DNA of 40,430 nt from Sulfurovum sp. (GCF_015493435.1 NZ_WGDD01000031.1:1-40430); one strand, 5' to 3'; numbered from the stretch's first letter, positions 3,025 to 23,009 are shown. The notes: generated by a model from the letters alone, not told the origin. Made by a program: numbers and translations.

Positions 3025-3468
3025 TTAGACACCTACTACTTCCACTTTCAGTTTCGCATGGATCGCATGGCCGAGTTTGGCATCTACTTCATGGATACCT
3101 GTAGATTTCAGTGCTTTTTTCAGATTGATGTGTTTTTTATCCAAGTCGATACCCAGTTGCTCCTTGATCGCCGCAGAGATATCGGCATTGCCGACTGACC
3201 CCTTGATCCCTACCGGTGCAGACTGTTTTTCAATGCGAATGGTCGCCGTCTCAAGCACTTTTTTTTCTGACTCAAGACGTGCAACCTCTTCTTTGAGCTC
3301 TTTTTCCATTCTTGCCTGCTCCGCTTTCCAATTCTCTATTACTTCGGCAGTTGCCAGTTTTGCCAGCCCTTTGTTGATAAGAAAATTCTGTCCGTAACCG
3401 TCCTTCACCTCTTTGATCTCACCGGCTTTTCCAAGTGATTTTACCTCTTTTATCAATAAAACTTTCAT
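3025..3468 (-). CDS. rplI: 50S ribosomal protein L9
   Basis: L9 binds 23S rRNA near the L1 stalk of the large subunit and helps hold the reading frame. The protein (147 aa) has the N-terminal domain signature [18 protein letters not shown] followed by a glycine-rich segment at 23-34. A long charged helix (about 45-75) then leads to the C-terminal domain. The length is normal. It is the first gene of the minus-strand set rplI-hslV-hslU-era. AAAGGA lies about nine bases before the ATG. Its promoter should lie in the 113-nt divergent region shared with the M3 peptidase, which carries unusual palindromes. Confidence 0.97.
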
Positions 3469-3511
3469 TCTGTCATATCCTTTGTGATAATAATGATATA
3501 TTTTATCTAAA

Positions 3512-3568
3512 GTTTGTTAATACTATTAACACGTGATGTGATACAATCACACAAATTTATTAACAAAC
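3512..3568. promoter_or_regulatory. Nested palindromes in the rplI / M3 peptidase divergent promoter
   Basis: Three inverted repeats overlap in this short spacer. GTTAATA-C-TATTAAC (3516-3530) is a perfect palindrome with a one-base centre. TGTGAT-aca-ATCACA (3537-3551) is perfect with a three-base centre and overlaps a possible plus-strand -10 box TACAAT (3542-3547). GTTTGTTAAT (3512-3521) and ATTAACAAAC (3559-3568) form a perfect 10-bp inverted repeat that encloses the rest. The half-site GTTAAT therefore occurs three times. This arrangement looks like an operator for a dimeric regulator, but no regulator can be named. Confidence 0.45.
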
Positions 3569-3581
3569 GGATACTTAAACA

Positions 3582-5543
3582 ATGTTTCAAACCTTTCATA
3601 TAGAGAGTCTGGATACTTTTCCAAAAGAACTCGAAACACTTCTTGACAGACAAAGAAGCACCATAGAAACGATCACAAAAAGCAGAAAAACAGACTATGC
3701 AGAGATACTTAAACCCCTGCAGGACATGGACGAAGAACTGGCACTTTTTTTTACCCCGCTCTCCCATCTCAATGCGGTTATGAATTCTGATGCTACACAG
3801 AAAGCCTATGAAGCTTCCATCCCCCTGCTCTCAAAATTCTCTTCTGAGATCGCACAGAATGAAGCCCTTTTTCACAAAATGGAAAAGATCATTGCCACAG
3901 AAGAAGAGGCTCAAACTGTTGTCCGGAACGAAGTAAGAGATTTTGTACTCTCCGGCGTCAAACTTCCGCACGACCAAAAAAAACGGATGGAAGAAATAAG
4001 TCTTCAACTCTCAGAACTTTCCAACAGCTTTTCACAGAATCTGCTTGATGCCACCAATGCCTATGAGCTTATTATTGAAGATGACAAAGATGTAGAAGGC
4101 ATGCCGCAGAGTGATATAGATGCAGCCAGAGAAGAGAAAGAGGGAAAAACCGTCTACAGATTTACACTTCAGCTCCCCAGTTATCTTGCCTATATGACTT
4201 ATGGCCCGAACAGAACATACAGAGAGGAACTCTCCAAGGCATACAGTACCCGTGCACCCCAAAATGCAGACGTCATAGACCATATCCTTGTTCTCAAACA
4301 GGAAAAAGCCAAAATGCTCGGTTTTGACAATTATGCCCAGTATGCACTTGAGACACGTGATGCCGACTCCCAGGAAGAAGTACTCTCTTTTCTCAACGAT
4401 CTGGCAGATGCGGCACTTTCTCAGGCAAAAGAAGAGATTTCAGCATTAAAATCCTATGCCAAAGAAACCGATGATATCGATGATTTCAGTACGTATGACA
4501 TGGCTTACTACAGCGAAAAGCTCAAAAAAGAAAAATTTGATTTTGACGATACCATGACAAAACCCTATTTTGAACAGGAAAAAGTACTGCGTGGTATGCT
4601 TGATATTGTTTCTGAGCTCTTTTCTGTTACATTCACACCTGCTGATGTACCGACATGGCATCATTGTGTCAAACCCTTTGATATTTACGAGAACGGTATG
4701 CTCTCCGGCCGTATCTACTTCGATCTTGAAGCACGCAAAGAAAAACGCGGCGGGGCATGGATGAATGACTGGGAGACACATTTTACCGATAGCAGGAAAA
4801 AAAGTCATCTTCCTTCTGCTTTCGTAGTCTGTAATTTCGCACCACCGTCAAACACTTCACCTTCTCTCCTTCGCCATGATGATGTTGTCACCCTTTTTCA
4901 TGAAATGGGACATGCTATCCACCATCTTTTCGGAAAATGCCATGAACGATCTGTTTCCGGCATTAATGGAGTAGCTTGGGATGTAGTCGAATTTCCTTCC
5001 CAGTTTTTGGAAAACTTTGCGTATGAAGCAGCCATACTCAAACGTTTCGGATTTCATTATGAAACAGGCGAAAGTATTTCCGAAGAGCTTCTCTCAAAGA
5101 TCAAAGAGACCAAGAATTTTCAGGCTGCACTGGGCATACTCAGACAGGTTGAATTTTCCCTTTTCGACTTTCAGCTGCATCAAAAGCTCTATCAGGGTGA
5201 GGAAGTACAGGCACTGCTTGACCGCATCAGAGAAAAAACTTCTCTCCTGAAAACACCGGCTTATAACAAATTCCAGCATGGCTTTGCACATATTTTTGCC
5301 GGAGGATATGCTGCGGGGTATTACAGCTATAAGTGGGCAGAAGTTCTCTCCGCAGACGCTTTTTTTGCGTGTCTTGACCAAAAAGAAGGCTTCAACAAAG
5401 AACGTGCCAAAGGCTACAAGGAGTATATTCTTGCCAAAGGAGGCTCAAAGGAGATGCGTGAACTTTACCGGGAATGGCTCGGACGCAAAGCAGAAGTGCA
5501 GAGCCTCCTGAGACTTTACGAGATCGGTTCTCAGGAGAAATAA
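3582..5543 (+). CDS. prlC: M3 family zinc oligopeptidase (oligopeptidase A type)
   Basis: This is a cytosolic metallopeptidase that degrades oligopeptides, including signal-peptide fragments in related enzymes. The protein (653 aa) has the zinc motif HEMGH (440-444). The third zinc ligand is probably Glu470 in the segment DVVEFPSQFLENF, which closely matches E. coli oligopeptidase A. A Gly/Tyr-rich substrate loop GGYAAGYYSYKWAE lies near the C-terminus (about 570). There is no signal peptide. The length is near the family's usual 650-680. The ATG at 3582 has only a poor GGAT-like binding site. The next gene starts directly after its stop. The symbol rests on the family motif, not on a proven orthology. 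Confidence 0.93.
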   Translation: MFQTFHIESLDTFPKELETLLDRQRSTIETITKSRKTDYAEILKPLQDMDEELALFFTPLSHLNAVMNSDATQKAYEASIPLLSKFSSEIAQNEALFHKMEKIIATEEEAQTVVRNEVRDFVLSGVKLPHDQKKRMEEISLQLSELSNSFSQNLLDATNAYELIIEDDKDVEGMPQSDIDAAREEKEGKTVYRFTLQLPSYLAYMTYGPNRTYREELSKAYSTRAPQNADVIDHILVLKQEKAKMLGFDNYAQYALETRDADSQEEVLSFLNDLADAALSQAKEEISALKSYAKETDDIDDFSTYDMAYYSEKLKKEKFDFDDTMTKPYFEQEKVLRGMLDIVSELFSVTFTPADVPTWHHCVKPFDIYENGMLSGRIYFDLEARKEKRGGAWMNDWETHFTDSRKKSHLPSAFVVCNFAPPSNTSPSLLRHDDVVTLFHEMGHAIHHLFGKCHERSVSGINGVAWDVVEFPSQFLENFAYEAAILKRFGFHYETGESISEELLSKIKETKNFQAALGILRQVEFSLFDFQLHQKLYQGEEVQALLDRIREKTSLLKTPAYNKFQHGFAHIFAGGYAAGYYSYKWAEVLSADAFFACLDQKEGFNKERAKGYKEYILAKGGSKEMRELYREWLGRKAEVQSLLRLYEIGSQEK

Positions 5544-12266: not shown

Positions 12267-12294
12267 TGCATTAAATATAATGCAGGAGAATAGA

Positions 12295-12738
12295 ATGAGT
12301 TTAAAAGAAAGAATTAAAAATGATATAAAAGAGGCAATGCGTGCCAAAGATACAGCCAAAAGAGATACGCTGCGAAATATTCAGGCTGCTGTCAAGCAAA
12401 TTGAAGTTGATGAGAGAAGAGAACTGAGCGATGCGGATGTCGAAGCGATACTCATGAAATATCTTAAACAGCGAGAAGATGCCAAAACACAGTTTGCAGA
12501 TGCCGGACGTGACGATCTTGTCAGCAAAGAAGAAGCGGAGATCATCCTTGTCAAAACCTACCTTCCCGAACCGATGAACGACGAAGAGCTCGAAGCCATC
12601 CTGAAAGAGATTATTGCCAAAACCGGTGCCCGGAGCATGAAAGATATGGGGAAGGTGATGGGTGCTGCAAAAGCTGAAATAGGCAGCCGTGCAGACGGCG
12701 GACGGATCAATGTTATCGTTAAGAAAATACTTTCTTAA
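12295..12738 (+). CDS. GatB/YqeY domain protein
   Basis: The protein (147 aa, MSLKERIKNDIKEAMRAKD) is a standalone YqeY-type protein, related to the C-terminal tRNA-binding region of GatB. The segments AKRDTLRNIQAAVKQIEVDERREL and MGKVMGAAK near the C-terminus are typical. Its exact role is unsettled; RNA binding in translation is likely from the family. An upstream in-frame ATG at 12280 exists, but AGGAG six bases before the ATG at 12295 makes that the start. A strong intrinsic terminator follows four bases after the stop. Confidence 0.92.
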   Translation: MSLKERIKNDIKEAMRAKDTAKRDTLRNIQAAVKQIEVDERRELSDADVEAILMKYLKQREDAKTQFADAGRDDLVSKEEAEIILVKTYLPEPMNDEELEAILKEIIAKTGARSMKDMGKVMGAAKAEIGSRADGGRINVIVKKILS

Positions 12739-12742
12739 GTAA

Positions 12743-12784
12743 ATACCCGGATATATCCTGCTTATATCCGGGTATGCAATTTTT
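12743..12784 (+). terminator. Intrinsic terminator after the yqeY-like gene
   Basis: ATACCCGGATATA (12743-12755) and TATATCCGGGTAT (12763-12775) form a perfect 13-bp stem with a 7-base loop. GCAA and a run of five T (12780-12784) follow. It terminates the plus-strand gene. It also marks the border of the accessory block, which ends 42 nt further on. Confidence 0.85.
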
Positions 12785-12825: not shown

Positions 12826-15800
12826 TTATGGTACTGGCGGTATCCAGACACTGAGAGTTGGTTCATTGTCTTCGGTAGTCTCATAGTTTAGCGCATACAC
12901 ACGTCTCCAGTAGTCCACTTTTATTTTAGCCGTACTGAAACCTTTGGTTGTGACAAGCGGTTCATTCGGTGTAGCAGAATGAGGATCATAAATATCCAGA
13001 AAATAGTTTTCACTGTTGGTCGGATCCGATCCCAACTGTTTCAGCACATAAATGAACCCTTTGGATTCTACATTGATATCGAGATAGCTGACACTTAATG
13101 TTTCACTTTTTAAATGAAATACACCTGTACCGTTATTAAAGCCCGGAAAATCCAGATAGACCGCACCGAACTGATTGAATGCCCTCAACCTTACAGTTCC
13201 AGAACTGGTATATTCCAGTATTACAATATCACCCCCTGGCGACATCGTAAGCAATAGAGGATCATACAAATATTGTGTTTTTGGATCTAATGCTCCCGCA
13301 CCGGTAACGGTATGGGTTTTAGGCATACTGTGTGCATTGATATACCGATTCGTATCGCTGTCATCACGCGGTGCATCCAAATGGCGAAGTATATGCAGCA
13401 CACCTGCGTTTGTATCCAGCCCTGCCAATATTTTTTTCTGGGGGCAATAGGCAAACTGTGTGATCGTGTCTGTAATAAATATTCCGATATTGGTTGCAAA
13501 ATCAATATTAAAGTCATTGGACTGTGAATCAATATCTACATTTCTTACATAGGTCAGTCCCTCTTTTGCTTCAAATACCATGTGCCCGGCCAGTGCATCT
13601 GATGTTGTAAGGTCATAGGAAAGCTGCATCATATTTGAACCTGCAAACGATTTTTTTCCCTGATCTGCCGTTGCAAGTACGGCAGAAATATTTTTAATAT
13701 GATATTGACCCGTACTTAACTCTTTATAGGCGTAGCCTATAGCACCTATCGGATCATTGACTGAAATTTTCAGTAATTCATTTGCTTTTAAATCAGTATC
13801 ACTGACAGTAGGTGAAGGCAGTAACGCATCTTTTTGTTTCACGTTCCATACATAGTTTCCTGCTGATTTTTCGAGTTGCGCATAATGCTGATAGATACTG
13901 TTGCCTCCGATAGGAATCAGATTTTCTATGATTTCGACAATTTGGACACTATCCTCAAAGTTGTTGATTTCTTTTTCCTGGTGCGCCGCAATCCAGTCAC
14001 CGATCTTTAACTGTACAGCAATATGAATATAGCCTCCGGCCGGTACATCCTTCAAACTAATATCATACGTACTGTATGTGCCTTTGTCCTTTACAGAATG
14101 TGAAATACTTTTATTTTTATCCCATGCCAAAGTATAGGGACTGCCTTTGACACTTGTATTGGAAGAAAATGTCAAACGAATCACAATACTGTCTACATTA
14201 AGAGGGAAATCGTTGTCTTTGGGATCACTTTTAAGCTGTATTTTCAATGTATGGGTACGGGTGACATCCACACTGTTGACCGCATTGCTGATACGGGCAG
14301 CAGAGATTGCATCACTCAGATTCGCCATACCGACTTCTGTAGCCATGGCACGAAAAACAGAACCGACAACAGGCAAAGAATCTTCCAGTACGGCCTCATC
14401 AATAGCTTCAAGAAGTATGGTCGTCAATTTTTTACTTCCGCTGAGAAGCAGTGTCGTGGCTATCCCTTTTAAAACACTCACAAGCGCTTCCTCTCCTTTC
14501 AAATCCGGATGCCCCAAAAAAGGCTTTGCGGTATTGATAGCAAACTTTGCACCGAGAAGGAGGAGAAGATTCTCGAACGATGCATTACGGTTTATAGTGG
14601 CGCCCCACAGAATAAGCAATGAGGGCAATGCCATTTCAAAAGAAATCGTATAGGCTTCTGCATCCGTCAGAATTCTCTGCATATTGCGTTTTTTCTGCGC
14701 CTCGTCAATAGCACCGGTTGAATCCTTGTAAAGGTTGGCATAATGTCCATTGTTGAAACTCAATGCGCCCAAAACAAAACGGACCGTATGCACCTTGGAA
14801 GTGAGTTTTATCGTAAATTGCTTTTTATAATCCGATACGGGTATCGCCATCAGGGCAAACCGGGGAGAAAGGATCCCTACATTTCTGAAGGCTTTGGTAT
14901 CGGGAAAAATTTCATTCTCCTGACCGGAATAAATCACATTGTTTTCATTGTCCAGAAAGATGGCATAGAGGCCGACATGCCTGTTGAACGCATTGCTTGC
15001 AGTGATATGCAAATTATTTCCGTCCACACTGTTAATGACAATATCCATTCCCTCCGATTTTAAACTTGATGTATCGATGGAGTACTGGATACCCTCATAT
15101 GATGCAGATTTGCTGGCCAGTGCCTGTGTCCATACTTTTGCCCTTTGCTGGGCAGTATTTAAAACCGGCTGGATAGGCAGCAGTTTGGAAGAAAGCCTTT
15201 TATCTGCTGAAAAATACTGAATCACATGATTGATGTCTTGCTGAAGATACACACCAAGGTTCTGACGTAAGGGAAATGTGTAGACAGGATCACCGATATT
15301 GTGTATGGTATTCCCGTTTGAGTCAACACTTTTCGTTGTTCGAAGCACAGGGTTTCCGTCAGGGTCTCTGTAAACCTGGTAATAGTACCATCTGCTGTTT
15401 CCCAAATGGTTCATCACCAGTTCCAGATTGGTTTCAACAGGTATGGTTTTTCCCTGGCGGGTCCTCCCTGTAAAAATATCATCAAATTTTGATACGGCAT
15501 AATACATATCGTCACGGGAAAAATGCTTGAACGTCGGTGCACTGAAAATGAGTGCTTTCACTGTTTCACGGGAAGTATCTGAAAACGTAATCGTCTCTTC
15601 ATTGCTTGTACCGTCAGGCACTATCAGTGCCAATGCCGCCAAGGAATATTGAGGAGGACTTCCTGGTATGATATCGTCTTCATCCAAAGCTTCATACTTG
15701 GTTTTCTTATAAAACATATGCATCGCATAATTGTCCTTGGCCGTAGTGGTTTCATAACTGTAGCTAACGCTACCCGAAGAAGATTGTTGGGAGATAGTAT

Positions 15801-16125
15801 TATCTTTGAGAAGCTTGGAAGCCCCGGTATGATTCACAACAAAAAATGTATCGCTCTCTGTGTTATACGGTATGGATGATGGTGTAAAATCTGGAAAATT
15901 TTTATCCAGAAATGCCTGTTGATCAGGAGTCAGTCCGGCATAATGGCTTTGTGGGTTTTCCAATAATTTAAACTCAAAAACGATTTTCAGTGTTTTAACA
16001 GATATCCCATCACCGACATTGCTCTGTTCGAAATTGTCCGAAGAATTACAGCCCGTAAGCTGTGTTGAAAGGGTTGCGCCTAAACTTAAAGCTATACCGT
16101 TTTTTAAAAAATGACGTCGTTTCAT
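12826..16125 (-). CDS. Giant Tat-exported lipoprotein of unknown family
   Basis: The protein (1,099 aa) starts MKRRHFLKNG, a twin-arginine motif, and has the lipobox LTGC with Cys26. Asn at the next position favours the outer membrane by the E. coli sorting rule. Beta-rich segments make up about 40-460. A helical, hydrophobic stretch at about 490-615 (for example LLLLLGAKFAI and LPVVGSVFRAMA) could be a membrane-active or packing region. Beta-rich domains resume at 620-870. The C-terminus (about 880-1099) resembles blades of a propeller (MSPGGDIVILEY, then RVYALNYE). No enzyme motif was found. AAGGA lies six bases before the ATG. It starts 14 nt after the upstream lipoprotein stop and is clearly in the same operon. 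Tat export suggests folding, perhaps with a cofactor, before transport. Confidence 0.8.
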   Translation of the reverse strand: MKRRHFLKNGIALSLGATLSTQLTGCNSSDNFEQSNVGDGISVKTLKIVFEFKLLENPQSHYAGLTPDQQAFLDKNFPDFTPSSIPYNTESDTFFVVNHTGASKLLKDNTISQQSSSGSVSYSYETTTAKDNYAMHMFYKKTKYEALDEDDIIPGSPPQYSLAALALIVPDGTSNEETITFSDTSRETVKALIFSAPTFKHFSRDDMYYAVSKFDDIFTGRTRQGKTIPVETNLELVMNHLGNSRWYYYQVYRDPDGNPVLRTTKSVDSNGNTIHNIGDPVYTFPLRQNLGVYLQQDINHVIQYFSADKRLSSKLLPIQPVLNTAQQRAKVWTQALASKSASYEGIQYSIDTSSLKSEGMDIVINSVDGNNLHITASNAFNRHVGLYAIFLDNENNVIYSGQENEIFPDTKAFRNVGILSPRFALMAIPVSDYKKQFTIKLTSKVHTVRFVLGALSFNNGHYANLYKDSTGAIDEAQKKRNMQRILTDAEAYTISFEMALPSLLILWGATINRNASFENLLLLLGAKFAINTAKPFLGHPDLKGEEALVSVLKGIATTLLLSGSKKLTTILLEAIDEAVLEDSLPVVGSVFRAMATEVGMANLSDAISAARISNAVNSVDVTRTHTLKIQLKSDPKDNDFPLNVDSIVIRLTFSSNTSVKGSPYTLAWDKNKSISHSVKDKGTYSTYDISLKDVPAGGYIHIAVQLKIGDWIAAHQEKEINNFEDSVQIVEIIENLIPIGGNSIYQHYAQLEKSAGNYVWNVKQKDALLPSPTVSDTDLKANELLKISVNDPIGAIGYAYKELSTGQYHIKNISAVLATADQGKKSFAGSNMMQLSYDLTTSDALAGHMVFEAKEGLTYVRNVDIDSQSNDFNIDFATNIGIFITDTITQFAYCPQKKILAGLDTNAGVLHILRHLDAPRDDSDTNRYINAHSMPKTHTVTGAGALDPKTQYLYDPLLLTMSPGGDIVILEYTSSGTVRLRAFNQFGAVYLDFPGFNNGTGVFHLKSETLSVSYLDINVESKGFIYVLKQLGSDPTNSENYFLDIYDPHSATPNEPLVTTKGFSTAKIKVDYWRRVYALNYETTEDNEPTLSVWIPPVP

Positions 16126-16139
16126 GTCGTTTCCTTATT

Positions 16140-19100
16140 TTATAGTTCACATGATTGATTCGGCTTATTACCGTCTGGACACGTCGTGTCACTGCCTGTT
16201 TTTGGAGGGGTGTTGTATCCTGGACAGGTTGCATCGCTATATGGGGATAGAGAAACTTTTGTAGGGTTGGGTGCAAAGAAAGTAAAGTTGAATGTAGCAC
16301 CGCTTAAGTCACTGCTGTCAAAAGTCACATGGCTAAAATTAATACCATCCATACTTGCCTGATGAAAATCAGCCTGTATCTTCACAACAGGGGATGAAAA
16401 ATCTGCACCCCGCAAATCGGCATCGGTAAAAACAGCCCCGGTAAAATCCACGCCACTCATATTGCTGCAGCCAAGCAGAGCTCCTGTAAATATCGACTGT
16501 GTCAAAGTAGTATCAGAAAGGTTTGTGTCAACAATATCTGTTTCATAATACGGATACATATCGACATTGTTAAACGTACTGCCTGTTAAATCAATACCGG
16601 AAAAATCTGCACCCCGCAATATTGAATTGTTGAATGCAGTATGGTCTACCCGGCTTTGTTCTCCCTTGACACTCAAGAGAGAAAGGCTACTGTTTTGAAA
16701 CTGTGCATAAGAAGCATCCGTATCGATCCATTGGCTTTCTATGAAACTGCTGTTACTATCAAAATGTGCCTGATAAAGGGTACTATTTCTAAACACTGTA
16801 TGATTAAAGTTGCCATGAGTACACGTAACATATGACAGGTTGGCATCTTCCCAGACTGACCCGCTGGCATCAATACCTGAGAGATCTGCCCCTCTTTTTT
16901 GGCTGACACCACCAAATTTCGAGCCAGACATATTGGCATCTCTAAAATCAAGGCTGTAAAAACTGTCTGAAAAACTGGCAGAGCTAAAATCATAAGGGAC
17001 TAAAAATTCGCTGCTCATATTTTCGACACTGTTGCTTGATGCTATCAGCTCGACAGGCACATTGACAGCTTCTCTGAAACTTGCAGGAGCACAGCCATCC
17101 TGAGAAAAAAACTGATTGGAATGAGAAACGATCGGCTTCTCTCCAAAGGTAACATCATCAAACCTGACACAGTACGAAGTATTGTTGGTCCAGGTCAATC
17201 CGTTAATGTAACTGCCGCTAAAGTCGGTATGGAAGAGTATAACAGGATTTGTATTCTGGCTCAAAGTAAGATTGACCAACGTAGCGTTTTTAAACGCAAC
17301 ATTATCAAATCCTGCTGCGTGATCGAACGTTACGTTGTCAAGCGTGATTTTATTAAATTTACTGTTGCTTAAATTTACTTCCGTATAAAATGTTCCATGC
17401 TGAATATTGCTGTTTATCACAATATTATTTTGACCGGTAGGACTTAAATTTACATTTTTAAGATAGCTCTCTTTTAATGTATTGTTGTTAAAATAAAAAG
17501 GATAGGTGGGACTGTCATGAGGGCCTAAGATCAATGCCTCCCAATTCCCGGAACCGTCTGCATTTTTACTATACAGTTTGCCATCACCCGACAGAACGAC
17601 CACACGGAAAGGATGACTTCCACTGACTGATGTACCACCGCCGATAGAAGGAGATGATATGACACCATTTTGGGGATGCCCCAGATTGGTTAAAGCATTT
17701 TCAGAAGCATTGGTAAGACTTCCGGCATACACATCCTCATGATACACAAAAGAAAAATCGGTGAAGACCGCATTCAGATCCACACGTGATCCCACCATAA
17801 TATCGGTTGACCGTAAATCATTGTTCCTATAATTGATATAGGCTAGTTTGTTGTCTTTGACAAATACAAGCAGGTCATCCCTGTTAATAGATATTTCCGA
17901 ATCTGTTTTTTGTATGGGATAGCTTGCATGTCCCCAGTCATGGATATAGTTTGGAGCATTCCCATAACGCGAATCACGTGCTTTGTTATATTTATTGTAA
18001 AAATAACGTGTCCAGGTATGCAGTGTCCCTTTCATATCCTGACAGGCTACCGTTACATATAGTTCATTGCTCGAAGAGGATCCTCCATGATTTTTGTAAG
18101 TGGCATCCGGATTGCTTTCACATACCTGAGTGCCTTCGATTCTATACCATGTTTCTTTGACTTTTGCAGGTCCTTTAATGTCAGCACCATGCTTCAAGTA
18201 TTCATAAACATATCCATCACTTGCTTTGACAAACACTGAAAACCCGGCGACAAAATTATTGGGTACAACACTCGGAGGGGAAACAATCTTCAGACCGTTT
18301 GGAAGAAATGGCTGCACGCCATAGGCATAAGGGTCTTTATGACTGTTAAACAGTACCAATCTGTTATTATTATCGACCGCAGCAGTTAAATCATAATCAT
18401 AATTGCTTTTTTCACCGAACAGATTGGTAATGGAAGGTTGGGAGACAATCACGGGACTGAATGTCAGTGCGCTGCCGAATTCTCCCGTATAGAATACCGT
18501 ACGTGTCATATCTGCATAGTTAAAATTAGCCCCTTTAAAGGTACATTTCCAAAAAACGGTATGGGAAAGATTTGCATCTATAAAACTGACCCCGTCGAAA
18601 TTGGTATTTTCAAAGACAGAATAACTCAGGTCAGACGCATCAAGATTTGCCAATTCCATATTCAACGGTGGTTTATTTTCATTTCCGAATTCATCACGAT
18701 CCTGGTTTTGTATTTTAAAGAAATCGCTTTGTGTTATATCAAGTTTTTTCAAATACGATTCTTCCAGGCGCAACGAAATCTCACTGTCTACAAACGTATT
18801 TGAAAAAGCAAGATGAGACAAGTTCAGACCGAATAAATTGCACCCTTTGCAGATATCGAAAGATATCACTGTTTTTTTTGCTAATATTCTATTCTGCAAC
18901 CCGCCAGAAGTATTTTGGGGTGTTACTGGTGTTGCCAATGATGAAGTTTCTTCTTTAGGATAGAAAAATACTGTATGAGATTTACCGCTGCCGTTACGGA
19001 GCGTATATCTGTAAATACCCTGTTTCAGATTCACAGTATGACAGCCTTGTGTCATATCCAAATAGCGTGTTTCATTTTTGTCTGCAATGATCAAATCATA

Positions 19101-19409
19101 TCCAGCACCCAAATCATTTTCAAAACAGTAGGTATGTAAAGACTCTCTGTCAATATACACATCAAAAGCATCTGCACCTATCGGAGGAATGTCATTTTTA
19201 TGACTCTTCTGTGACTCGAGGTTTAACACAATTTTATTTGATGAAGTTACGGTATACCTGGCTAAATCTCCGCTGCTTTCCGTAATGATACCCGCTGGAG
19301 CGATTTCTTTTTCAGCTGGAACCACTTTTTCAGGAGCATTTGTATTGCTGTTACAGGCCAGCAGTATAAAAGTACTGTACAACATAATAATTATTTTATA
19401 TTTATTCAT
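16140..19409 (-). CDS. Giant lipoprotein with pentapeptide repeats interrupted by a lectin-like propeller
   Basis: The protein (1,089 aa) has a lipoprotein signal peptide (LLAC, Cys19, then Asn, so probably outer membrane). Residues 40-180 form an N-terminal beta domain. Pentapeptide repeats (pattern A/S-N/D-L/F-x-x) occupy about 191-310, 640-750 and 805-1045, for example GADFSGIDLTGSTF. Between blocks one and two, residues 320-630 look like a lectin-type propeller with recurring units such as LLVFVKDNKLAYINY and VVVLSGDGKLYSKNADGSGNW. The C-terminal 40 residues are Cys- and Pro-containing. AAGGA lies six bases before the ATG. It follows the response regulator by 76 nt and precedes the Tat lipoprotein. 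Function is unknown; binding of surface glycans is a reasonable guess from the propeller. Confidence 0.82.
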   Translation of the reverse strand: MNKYKIIIMLYSTFILLACNSNTNAPEKVVPAEKEIAPAGIITESSGDLARYTVTSSNKIVLNLESQKSHKNDIPPIGADAFDVYIDRESLHTYCFENDLGAGYDLIIADKNETRYLDMTQGCHTVNLKQGIYRYTLRNGSGKSHTVFFYPKEETSSLATPVTPQNTSGGLQNRILAKKTVISFDICKGCNLFGLNLSHLAFSNTFVDSEISLRLEESYLKKLDITQSDFFKIQNQDRDEFGNENKPPLNMELANLDASDLSYSVFENTNFDGVSFIDANLSHTVFWKCTFKGANFNYADMTRTVFYTGEFGSALTFSPVIVSQPSITNLFGEKSNYDYDLTAAVDNNNRLVLFNSHKDPYAYGVQPFLPNGLKIVSPPSVVPNNFVAGFSVFVKASDGYVYEYLKHGADIKGPAKVKETWYRIEGTQVCESNPDATYKNHGGSSSSNELYVTVACQDMKGTLHTWTRYFYNKYNKARDSRYGNAPNYIHDWGHASYPIQKTDSEISINRDDLLVFVKDNKLAYINYRNNDLRSTDIMVGSRVDLNAVFTDFSFVYHEDVYAGSLTNASENALTNLGHPQNGVISSPSIGGGTSVSGSHPFRVVVLSGDGKLYSKNADGSGNWEALILGPHDSPTYPFYFNNNTLKESYLKNVNLSPTGQNNIVINSNIQHGTFYTEVNLSNSKFNKITLDNVTFDHAAGFDNVAFKNATLVNLTLSQNTNPVILFHTDFSGSYINGLTWTNNTSYCVRFDDVTFGEKPIVSHSNQFFSQDGCAPASFREAVNVPVELIASSNSVENMSSEFLVPYDFSSASFSDSFYSLDFRDANMSGSKFGGVSQKRGADLSGIDASGSVWEDANLSYVTCTHGNFNHTVFRNSTLYQAHFDSNSSFIESQWIDTDASYAQFQNSSLSLLSVKGEQSRVDHTAFNNSILRGADFSGIDLTGSTFNNVDMYPYYETDIVDTNLSDTTLTQSIFTGALLGCSNMSGVDFTGAVFTDADLRGADFSSPVVKIQADFHQASMDGINFSHVTFDSSDLSGATFNFTFFAPNPTKVSLSPYSDATCPGYNTPPKTGSDTTCPDGNKPNQSCEL

Positions 19410-19437
19410 AAATAATCCTTTTTTATCTTAATAAAAA

Positions 19438-19484
19438 AGTATAACCTATAAGAATTAGATTGAAATTAGAATACTGGATATTCT
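19438..19484 (-). promoter_or_regulatory. Possible promoter and inverted repeat before the lipoprotein genes
   Basis: The 76-nt gap between the response regulator and the lipoprotein genes holds a minus-strand -10-like TATACT (19443-19438), with TTTCAA about 16 bases upstream. It also holds an inverted repeat AGAATA-ctgga-TATTCT (19468-19484, plus-strand reading). The repeat could be a regulator site or a weak terminator. The response regulator encoded upstream is the obvious candidate to act here. Confidence 0.35.
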
Positions 19485-19485
19485 C

Positions 19486-20166
19486 TTAGACTGATGACTC
19501 GCATAAAAGGATATATCCGACGTTGGGGATATTGTTAATATGAATATGAGGAACTTTTTTTCTTAACCGATAGGTCAGTTCGCGAAGCGAAGATATGTGT
19601 TCATGCCCATCCCCCCAAATCATTTCAATCAGCTGTTCCACGCTGATATGCGCATTTTTATACCGTATCAAAGCATCAAAGCATAACTGCTCTTTCTGAC
19701 TCAAAACAATATAGTTGTCCTTGTAGTACAGATCTTTTGTTTCAATGTTATAGGTATATCCGTTGCAGTATATCGTGTCAGGTGCTATCGTTCGTTCAGG
19801 AGACATTTGACTTTCGCTTACCATCAAAATCGCTTCTATATCACTCTCTACAACAGGTTTTATAATGTATCCCAAAGGTTTGACAAACAGTGCCTGCCGT
19901 ATGGTGTGACTGTCTTTAAAAGAGGTTAAAAAAATAAAACCGACATGTGCATATTTGGCATGTATTCTTTCTGCCAACTGCAAACCGTCAATTGAACCGT
20001 TGATCTGAATATCCATGAAAACAAGGTCTACTGACTGGTGTTGAACACATTCCAATGTATCTTCGGCATTGTCAAAAATCCCTACAACGGTATGTCCGAA
20101 ATCACTAATGGTTTCCTGTAAAAAAAGTGCCGTAATACCTTCATCTTCCACAATAACGATTTTCAT
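19486..20166 (-). CDS. OmpR-family response regulator
   Basis: The protein (226 aa) has an N-terminal receiver domain with acidic residues Glu7/Asp8, phospho-acceptor Asp52 (FMDIQ), Thr81 and Lys103 (IIKPV). Residues 133-226 form a winged helix of the PhoB/OmpR type, ending LRELTYRLRKKVP and NNIPNVGYIL. It is therefore a DNA-binding transcription factor. The ATG overlaps the stop of the upstream kinase by 4 nt (20163-20166), so the two form one two-component pair. Its likely targets are the two lipoprotein genes directly downstream; this is inferred from position only. Confidence 0.93.
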   Translation of the reverse strand: MKIVIVEDEGITALFLQETISDFGHTVVGIFDNAEDTLECVQHQSVDLVFMDIQINGSIDGLQLAERIHAKYAHVGFIFLTSFKDSHTIRQALFVKPLGYIIKPVVESDIEAILMVSESQMSPERTIAPDTIYCNGYTYNIETKDLYYKDNYIVLSQKEQLCFDALIRYKNAHISVEQLIEMIWGDGHEHISSLRELTYRLRKKVPHIHINNIPNVGYILLCESSV

Positions 20167-22013
20167 AACAATATACTTCCGGGAAATGTGATTTTATGGT
20201 GCAGGCCCTGGCTGTTGTATGTCTCTATATCTCCCTTGAGCTGATATCCTGCCAGTGATTGAACCAGCTTGAAACCAAATCCTTCTTTTGCCTTCTCCAA
20301 TTTTACTCCTTTACCATTATCATACACTTCAAGTATGACTGCATCATGCTTTACAGTATACATCTTAATAGCAATATTTTTACTGCTTTGGTGCGCAGGA
20401 AAAGCATATTTTACAGCATTGGTGACCAGTTCATTGATAATAAGCCCCATGGGAACAGCTGTTTCAAGCGTCAGTCGGATCTTTTCACACTGAATCATAA
20501 AAAGAATATCATTATATTCCAGACTATGCTGTAATTCTTCTACCAGATCATGTGTATATTCCTGCATATTTACGGCAGTCAGATCATCTGACTGGTAGAG
20601 TTTTTCATGGATCATGGCCATAGATTTAATACGCTGGTTGGTATCGGCTAAAATATCTTTTGATTCTTTTTGGATGACACGTCTGATCTGCAGTGACAAC
20701 AAGCCCGAAATAATTTGCAGATTATTCTTTACCCGGTGATACAATTCACGAAAAAGTATATTTTTATTATTGATTTCAATAAAAAGTTCTTTATTTTTTT
20801 CATCCAGGTCGAAGGTACGTTCCCTCACTTTGTCTTCCAGATGTACATTGAGTTCTCTTAGCTCGCCTTCTGTACAGGTTAATTTTGAAAATACTTCATT
20901 ATAACGATATGCCAGGGCAAAAGACAAAAGTGCCAACTCAAAGAAAGCACCTATCTGCGGTGCATAAAGAGAAAACCGATTCATATGAATCAATCCCATA
21001 TTCTGCATTTCCCCCGAGAGTCCCCCTATGAGCAGAAAACTCCATGCCGAGACAAAAAATTTCGATGCCATCGTTCTGTATCTGTATAAAATATAGATAC
21101 TGATCAAAAACAAAAGCACAATATTGAGCATGGAAAGAATGGTAATAAGGATAATACTTACATTATAGGAAAGAAAGAATATGGATATCATCGTAAAGAG
21201 GAAAAGGTATTTGAATCGATTCAACATTAACGCCAATACAGCATTATACCGTTCCAGTTCGAGGAACAATACCGTAAATTGAATGGAATAATAATTCGTT
21301 AAACTAAATACAATAGGAATAAAATAGTGATTTATCGCAGGATAGTGCGGATAAAAATATTCAAATGCCAGACCGTTCAGACCCAACTGAAGTGCCAGAT
21401 GGAACATATGGAAAACAACATAATACAGATAAACCCATTCTTTAATCATTAAAAACAAAATAAAATTATACATAAGCATAATCAATACAGCCCCATAATA
21501 AAGTCCCAAAAAAAGCCCGTTCTGAGATACATTGCTGTAGTACTCTTTCAGGGAAAAATGCCGTATACCAATATTCAGGGATGAGTTGGAACTGAATTTA
21601 AACAGTATTTCTTTTTTTTCAAAAGCCTTTAACGTATAAGGTATGACAAAATCATTTGTTTTTATCTTCCTTGTATCAAAAGGAGTGAGATCTCCTGTCA
21701 TGTACTCTTTTTCAAAATGACCGTTTTTATGTACATACACAGTAATATAGTCATGTAGAGGATAGGGGAACTCCAACATTTCAGATATATTTTTGTTCGC
21801 CAAATTCTGTACATTGACATAAATCCATACATTGCCTTCGGTAAATCCCAAAGTTGCATTTTTTTGTGTCAATACACTAAACCTGTTTCTATTGTGGTAA
21901 GCCTCTTCAACAGACCAGTGATGTGATTTATCAACATAGTAGCGTGCCACTAATTTTGTATTTTGCCCGAACAGATAAAATGTAAACATAAAAAATAGCA
22001 ATGCATATTTCAT
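20163..22013 (-). CDS. 7TMR-DISM sensor histidine kinase, HisKA_2 type
   Basis: The protein (616 aa) has a signal peptide (1-16) and a periplasmic beta-sandwich sensor (about 20-155, 7TMR-DISMED2-like). Seven membrane helices follow at about 165-370, then a coiled coil (375-420). The HisKA_2 dimerisation segment has His426 in LYHRVKNNLQ, and the ATPase domain has the N box INELVTNAVKYAF, YDNGKG and GFGFKLV. In this family the outer domain is thought to bind small ligands, often carbohydrates. AAGGGG lies four bases before the ATG. Two minus-strand TATAAT boxes (22040-22035 and 22030-22025) lie just upstream. It appears more AT-rich than the flanking genes. Confidence 0.93.
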   Translation of the reverse strand: MKYALLFFMFTFYLFGQNTKLVARYYVDKSHHWSVEEAYHNRNRFSVLTQKNATLGFTEGNVWIYVNVQNLANKNISEMLEFPYPLHDYITVYVHKNGHFEKEYMTGDLTPFDTRKIKTNDFVIPYTLKAFEKKEILFKFSSNSSLNIGIRHFSLKEYYSNVSQNGLFLGLYYGAVLIMLMYNFILFLMIKEWVYLYYVVFHMFHLALQLGLNGLAFEYFYPHYPAINHYFIPIVFSLTNYYSIQFTVLFLELERYNAVLALMLNRFKYLFLFTMISIFFLSYNVSIILITILSMLNIVLLFLISIYILYRYRTMASKFFVSAWSFLLIGGLSGEMQNMGLIHMNRFSLYAPQIGAFFELALLSFALAYRYNEVFSKLTCTEGELRELNVHLEDKVRERTFDLDEKNKELFIEINNKNILFRELYHRVKNNLQIISGLLSLQIRRVIQKESKDILADTNQRIKSMAMIHEKLYQSDDLTAVNMQEYTHDLVEELQHSLEYNDILFMIQCEKIRLTLETAVPMGLIINELVTNAVKYAFPAHQSSKNIAIKMYTVKHDAVILEVYDNGKGVKLEKAKEGFGFKLVQSLAGYQLKGDIETYNSQGLHHKITFPGSILL

Positions 22014-22214
22014 ACTGCCCCTTAATTATATTTTATTATAATATATTTAAATAAAATATCTCAATATAATTTTTAATTCATTGATTTTTCAAAAAAATAT
22101 AGCTAAGGGCTTGGAAGATAACAATAATTTGAAACAAACAGTAGATTATTTGCTAAAAAAGAAGAGGGACAAACACATCACAGCGCTGTCGGGAGACAAC
22201 ACCCTGTGCGAAAC
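22014..22214. other. Intergenic region between trpC and the sensor kinase
   Basis: No gene is supported here. The half next to the kinase is extremely AT-rich and holds two TATAAT boxes that could start the kinase transcript. Near trpC, on the minus strand, a weak stem (GTTGTC-tccc-GACAGC, about 22184-22204, with wobble pairs outward) could be a poor terminator, but no T run follows. Confidence 0.5.
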
Positions 22215-23009
22215 TTATTTTCCGTATTTTACAGATCTGATAGCAGCGGTAATATCATCCTGTCGCATAAAATGCTCTCCTACAAGAAAAGCATCCGCAC
22301 CCATTTTGGAAATTTCTACAACTGTTTCATGGTCATTGATACCGCTTTCCGCCACAATGATCTTGTTATTCGGAATAAGAGGAATAAGTTTTTCAGTCAG
22401 TCGCATATCCATCTCGAAAGTTTCAAGATTTCGGTGGTTGATGCCGATGATGGTCGCGCCGGCGAACATTGCTTTGATAAGATCGCTCTTGTCATGTATC
22501 TCTACCAGAACTTCCAGTCCAAGGTGCAGTGCATATTCGTAAAGTGTTTTAAGCTCTTTACGGGAAAGGGCTTTGGCAATAAGCAATATATAGTCCGCAC
22601 CGAAAGCCAGTGCCTCGACGATCTGGTATTTGTCTACGATGAAATCTTTCCTGAGCAGAGGAATACTGACATAGCGGCGTACCATTCCAAGGTATTCTTT
22701 GTCACCCTGAAAGAAATGCGGTTCGGTTAAAATGGAAAGAGAATCTGCACCGCCTTTTTCATATGCCTGTGCAATGACCATCGGGTCAAAATCTTCACGG
22801 ATAACCCCCTTGCTCGGGCTTGCTTTTTTTACTTCAGCAATGATACGGTAGGGATTCTCTTCTGTTGAACGCAGTGCTGTCTGCACATCTTTTGGTACAA
22901 AAGGATTAAAGGCAAGAGAACGCCCCAGCCATTCTACCGGATAGTCTACTTTTCTCTTTGCAAGATCTTCTTTTGTCTTTTTGATAATTTCATCTAAAAT
23001 CTGAGCCAT
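22215..23009 (-). CDS. trpC: Indole-3-glycerol-phosphate synthase
   Basis: TrpC closes the indole ring in tryptophan synthesis. The protein (264 aa) is a TIM barrel with the signatures [36 protein letters not shown] and VAESGI, all typical of the single-function enzyme. The length is normal. No other trp gene is in the window, so the pathway is dispersed. The minus-strand -10 TATAAT lies at 23041-23036, about 27 nt before the ATG. The ribosome binding site is weak (GTGAG). Confidence 0.97.

Follow-up and report, generated by a model that had tools for sequence, protein, structure and literature searches.

A far-travelled pair of giant propeller and pentapeptide-repeat proteins, with predicted lipoprotein signals, beside a sensor pair in Sulfurovum

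The four-gene block at positions 12826-22013 of the window (the whole 40,430-nt stretch of Sulfurovum sp. DNA analysed here) is accessory cargo that joins a locally common sensor pair to a far-travelled pair of giant proteins. Judging from genome comparisons, the conserved unit is the two giant proteins, and the sensor pair is not part of it elsewhere. That the two proteins form an envelope complex under local sensor control in this genome appears to us about evenly balanced on the sequences at hand. More broadly, the pair might represent an undescribed two-protein machine that moves horizontally and spans at least six phyla, intracellular or released in most hosts and here lipid-anchored by two routes and given a dedicated sensor, a reading that we put forward tentatively and consider somewhat short of probable. 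A large family for which Pfam and NCBIfam offer no full-length model is linked here to a giant pentapeptide partner, and their pairing over at least six phyla predicts a joint function of the two protein types and offers a defined pair to co-purify.

Gene organization and base composition of the block

ORF calls and Pfam searches place four ORFs in the block, all on the minus strand: a sensor kinase (20163-22013, 616 aa), a response regulator (19486-20166, 226 aa), lipoprotein 1 (16140-19409, 1,089 aa) and lipoprotein 2 (12826-16125, 1,099 aa). The kinase and regulator ORFs overlap by 4 nt, the regulator is separated from lipoprotein 1 by 76 nt and the two lipoprotein ORFs stand 14 nt apart. 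The block is flanked by trpC (22215-23009) and a YqeY-like gene (12280-12738). The original prediction had described these four genes with their domains, overlap and lipoprotein spacing, and every coordinate checked agreed with it. It had also proposed that the block is richer in AT than its flanks, and GC computation bears this out relative to most flanking genes, as a gradient in which the kinase has the lowest GC (35.2%), followed by the regulator (38.3%) and the lipoproteins (40.0% and 41.8%), with other window genes at about 39-49%. The codon-usage half of the same check gave no outlier among the block genes when compared with the other window genes.

Among 12 same-genus stretches that contain both trpC and yqeY, the two genes either abut or are split by other cargo, and the block is present in none. 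By sequence reading, this cargo includes a glycerophosphodiester-phosphodiesterase-like gene, an ATPase with a small membrane protein, and an unrelated lipoprotein. Because the junction is empty or differently filled in relatives, we regard it as a site where genes come and go.

Three other readings of the block were tried and set aside. Its two edges share no matching 10-mers and no integrase or tRNA caught the eye at them, which does not fit a mobile element; PADLOC gave no match for the window proteins, either lipoprotein included, that would indicate a known defence system; and PHROGs gave no match for the window proteins that would indicate a viral origin. Differing cargo at the trpC-yqeY junction, which lies between two convergent housekeeping genes, was seen in L065 (8162-8851), L069 (6013-7860) and L076 (8370-9219).

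A propeller-protein family paired with giant pentapeptide-repeat proteins

Lipoprotein 2 returned nothing convincing from Pfam, NCBIfam, PDB or phages, and single-sequence searches of genome contigs, viral contigs and phages gave no match. In 397 Campylobacterota genomes it matched itself and, weakly, one other sequence (E 0.006). By tblastn, it is similar to a Xenorhabdus bovienii megaplasmid protein (22% identity over 77%, E 1e-7; 2e-16 in pairwise BLASTP), and single-sequence phmmer, which is independent of the profile, matches most members of the same un-named family, down to 8e-30. The three methods together give full-length similarity, making lipoprotein 2 a divergent member of this family, which comprises proteins of 840-1,500 residues with a C-terminal NHL-type propeller.

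Alignment of the C-terminal fragment, in which the partner gene was not used, recovered 26 loci from Spirosoma, Taibaiella, Paenibacillus, Tumebacillus, Bradyrhizobium, Mycobacterium, Hormoscilla, Photorhabdus, Xenorhabdus and Pectobacterium. The family thus extends over Bacteroidota, Bacillota, Pseudomonadota, Actinomycetota and Cyanobacteriota, or six phyla with that of the window. Profile searches found it in 5 of 200 genomes from the family of Spirosoma, 11 of 199 from that of Paenibacillus and 1 of 194 from the cyanobacterial class; the 397 Campylobacterota genomes held one real carrier, the window genome, and short propeller-repeat matches in one other.

We then considered intact loci outside the window, all of them found without reference to the partner gene; duplicate loci were not counted, nor were the fragmentary L112, L139 and L148. 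In 37 of these 38 loci the same strand encodes a giant pentapeptide protein no more than 5 kb away, and the exception, from Hormoscilla, is truncated on its upstream side by a contig end. Many of the paired genes overlap or stand at most 60 nt apart; in X. bovienii, the pentapeptide-repeat protein stands two short genes after the family protein. A TTCP[DNS]G-like C-terminal motif occurs in 33 of 40 partner ORFs (one of doubtful frame, L091, included) versus none of 14 control pentapeptide ORFs, and in 0.5% of shuffles. Lipoprotein 1 has the form TTCPDG 15 residues before its C-terminus, as do other partners.

The original prediction had proposed that all four genes form one conserved surface system, with linkage of the two-component genes to the lipoproteins. 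The layout in the window genome is indeed operon-like, but in all 38 other intact loci the 4 kb around the pair are free of kinase and regulator homologues, so that the expected linkage does not hold and such a system is very unlikely. The unusual make-up that had been noted did stand. We found no paper on the pair in open-access text, and the pair appears to be un-named in Pfam, NCBIfam and open-access papers, its component parts being known.

The family tree departs from the species tree, for example in placing Hormoscilla beside Photorhabdus and Xenorhabdus, a mismatch that fits horizontal transfer. Lipoprotein 2 has the longest branch of the tree (3.99, placement unreliable), so its function may have shifted.

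In its simplest form the pair consists of two genes alone, and some pairs are accompanied by Gly-rich proteins and a type I polyketide synthase (PKS). The X. bovienii megaplasmid cluster XBW1_RS22195-RS22175 (WP_046338262.1 with WP_038201898.1) resembles the window in having family and giant pentapeptide proteins in one same-strand run, but its proteins lack signal peptides, Gly-rich proteins lie between the partners, a type I PKS follows and there are no two-component genes. A locus from the family of Spirosoma (L147, genome G524) likewise places its pentapeptide genes immediately before the gene of the propeller family. Unlike the window, it has no kinase, its propeller-family protein has no signal, and of its two pentapeptide partners one ends in a Gly-rich stretch and the other has LRRs.

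Other variations in content were observed around the pair. Several copies of Gly-rich (GGNGG) proteins surround it in Photorhabdus and Pectobacterium (L098, L099, L103, L104, L106, L108, L109), and the signal-bearing partner with the Gly-rich C-terminus in L147 (11490-13472) looks as if it had been fused to the Gly-rich proteins that stand alone in other clusters. L148 shares its neighbors with the intact L147 and retains the family gene as a truncated relic (316-666), suggesting recent loss. In Paenibacillus and Tumebacillus, another family member, shorter at 844-858 aa, sits between the pentapeptide gene and the type I PKS (L092, L093, L095, L096, L110; about 15.8-18.5 kb). In the Spirosoma locus L087, the family gene and its pentapeptide partner flank a TULIP/BPI-like protein (3464-5224; PF02886, 1.2e-6), a hint that the ligands may be lipids or otherwise hydrophobic.

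Export signals of the two lipoproteins

Lipoprotein 1 begins with a Sec lipoprotein signal (MNKYKIIIM...LLAC followed by N, Cys at residue 19), and lipoprotein 2 with a Tat motif, RRxFLK, and a lipobox (MKRRHFLK...LTGC followed by N, Cys at residue 26). The assignment of one protein to Sec and the other to Tat, each with Asn after the lipobox, is therefore confirmed in the sequence, and the window genome encodes TatC. Since both proteins bear lipoprotein signals, they should be lipid-anchored outside the cytoplasm, and we infer that Sec and Tat bring them to the cell envelope, where they are held. Tat export would be apt for lipoprotein 2, since its relatives seem to be folded in the cytoplasm.

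Signal peptides are absent from most family members, which may therefore act inside the cell in other hosts. Lipoprotein signals on both partners are new in the window and would place their action outside the cytoplasm. In L147, which has the same gene order as the window, both pentapeptide partners have Sec-type N-termini.

Predicted structure of lipoprotein 2

The AF2 model of lipoprotein 2 (mean pLDDT 60, uncertain outside the propeller) runs from a low-confidence N-terminal part through beta domains and a central helical domain (residues 475-612, 14290-14703, minus strand; low confidence at 506-598) to a C-terminal six-bladed NHL-type beta-propeller (residues 740-1099, 12829-13908, minus strand). 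The predicted propeller aligned to the NHL domain 7nyq with a VIA-align Z of 19.8 (rmsd 3.3, 254 residues aligned) and also to teneurin-like proteins. In keeping with this, an NHL-type NCBIfam model gives weak matches to 15 of 22 family members. The NHL propellers of Brat, Mei-P26, the PknD sensor domain and teneurin share the six-bladed fold with lipoprotein 2 (Z 18-20), but their identity to it is about 10-14% and the remaining domains differ.

The hydropathy peak of the central domain is 1.45 in lipoprotein 2 versus a transmembrane-like 1.9-2.8 in most signal-less members; it is low in a few signal-less members too. The lowered value is as expected for a protein that must cross a membrane.

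These features could also belong to a secreted antagonism or toxin-like complex, in which target binding falls to the propeller and beta-helix and membrane insertion to the helical domain, the signal-less members being freed by lysis and the lipoprotein form displayed on the surface. The transmembrane-like hydropathy of this domain in most members, the alignment of the propeller to teneurin-like proteins and the wide occurrence of the pair in Photorhabdus and Xenorhabdus species are consistent with such a role. Nevertheless, no toxin or enzyme domain was found in the pair, no immunity gene was seen, the transmembrane-like character is reduced in the window protein itself, and the family is present also in Spirosoma, Taibaiella and Mycobacterium. 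We therefore consider a toxin-like complex unlikely.

The pentapeptide-repeat partner

Lipoprotein 1 is a giant pentapeptide-repeat protein (Pfam Pentapeptide, 2.5e-38), an identity absent from the original prediction. Its C-terminal pentapeptide beta-helix (residues about 841-1045, 16275-16889, minus strand) is modeled at pLDDT mostly 80-90, except at residues 881-917 and 947-954, and has PDB pentapeptide matches. Between the pentapeptide regions lies an insert (residues about 320-645, 17475-18452, minus strand) for which there is no Pfam match and for which the weak PDB matches are solely to designed Cake propellers (E 0.02). By eye the insert is blade-like and a candidate propeller, which stays an impression because only the C-terminal helix of the lipoprotein 1 model is usable. 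A further pentapeptide-repeat ORF, a small one, is present in the window's own genome (L078, G000:C14:42690-43088).

The repeats are predicted to form a beta-helix as in the pentapeptide-repeat proteins Qnr, MfpA and HetL, but the models of those proteins span about 180-220 positions, whereas lipoprotein 1 has 1,089 aa, an export signal and a 320-aa insert. A gyrase-protecting partner that confers self-resistance linked to a natural-product cluster might be suggested by the pairs that adjoin a type I PKS, and there is a precedent in the Photorhabdus speirobactin cluster, where self-resistance is the role proposed for a 251-aa pentapeptide protein (PMC12406682). In the window, no PKS is adjacent, the lipoprotein signal would hold the protein away from gyrase, and lipoprotein 1 scores 42 bits on the Qnr family model, whose cut-off is 240, and 36 bits on the MfpA model, whose cut-off is 360. 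Gyrase protection is thus most improbable.

The sensor pair and candidate control elements

The kinase consists of a signal peptide followed by 7TMR-DISMED2, 7TMR-DISM_7TM, HisKA_2 and HATPase_c domains, all four of which exceed their Pfam cut-offs. The regulator is of the OmpR/PhoB type, with Response_reg and Trans_reg_C domains (Pfam 4e-19 and 2.2e-7; 31.3 bits versus a cut-off of 26.2 for Trans_reg_C).

A sigma-70-like promoter (TTGAGA-18-TATAAT, 11/12; 22035-22064, minus strand) lies upstream of the kinase, in a window whose total count of sigma-70-like sites is not above that of shuffles. The 76-nt gap before lipoprotein 1 contains a candidate regulator box, TCTAATT-TCAA-TCTAATT, with an 11-bp period (19453-19470, minus strand) and, 9 nt downstream, a TATACT -10-like box (19438-19443, minus strand). 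Such repeat-plus--10 spacing is the layout of PhoB-type boxes. The arrangement, found post hoc, was matched in 1.7% of dinucleotide shuffles (P 0.017), and the candidate box occurs as a single copy in the window even when 2 mismatches are allowed. No terminator-like site was found in this gap; a 13-bp hairpin where lipoprotein 2 and yqeY converge (12743-12775) is a candidate shared terminator.

Given the operon layout and the 11-bp repeat with its -10-like box before lipoprotein 1, control of the lipoprotein pair by the local kinase and regulator is plausible, and the sensor could serve to switch the pair on. The kinase would sense an outside small ligand, the regulator, bound at the 11-bp repeat, would raise transcription of the pair, and the two lipoproteins would jointly form a single binding or scaffold complex located in the envelope. 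Outside small molecules can elicit a response from kinases of this sensor type, as described for SagS and glucose-6-phosphate (PMC8544897).

Regulators of this type are common in the genus, occurring in 46 of 78 genomes (E <= 1e-22) without the propeller/pentapeptide pair. The nearest two-component relative in the genus (regulator 48% identical, kinase 42-49% identical, its kinase reading frame broken) adjoins a lysyl-tRNA-synthetase-like gene and has no lipoprotein beside it. Alternatively, then, the two halves of the block might be independent cargo sharing a permissive site, with the kinase and regulator controlling distant genes and the lipoprotein pair using its own promoter. The solitary state of this closest relative, the pairs elsewhere that have no two-component homologue nearby and the unrelated cargo accepted at the junction in relatives all agree with that account, but the four genes are co-directional and the 76-nt gap holds a regulator-type repeat and lacks a terminator-like site. 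We regard independent cargo as possible but rather doubtful, and continue to favor local control.

Kinase/regulator pairs across the genus have 7TMR-DISM HisKA_2 and OmpR-type domains identical in kind to those of the block, but most sampled copies lie among other genes, and the surface proteins that neighbor them (hemopexin, clostripain and NHL types) are unrelated to the block's pair. Unrelated genes surround most of the 20 regulator neighborhoods inspected. A few regulators are near other large secreted proteins or lipoproteins, namely hemopexin (G030 C23, the site of the second-closest regulator), clostripain (G030 C6) and NHL (G027) proteins, and another (G012) is near a 1,373-aa secreted protein, so proximity of sensor and surface protein recurs with changing cargo, a point in favor of local control in the block. 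The second-closest regulator relative (L192, 6990-12253), beside which no adjoining kinase homologue was found, directly follows genes for a HEAT-like protein and a 930-aa hemopexin-repeat lipoprotein.
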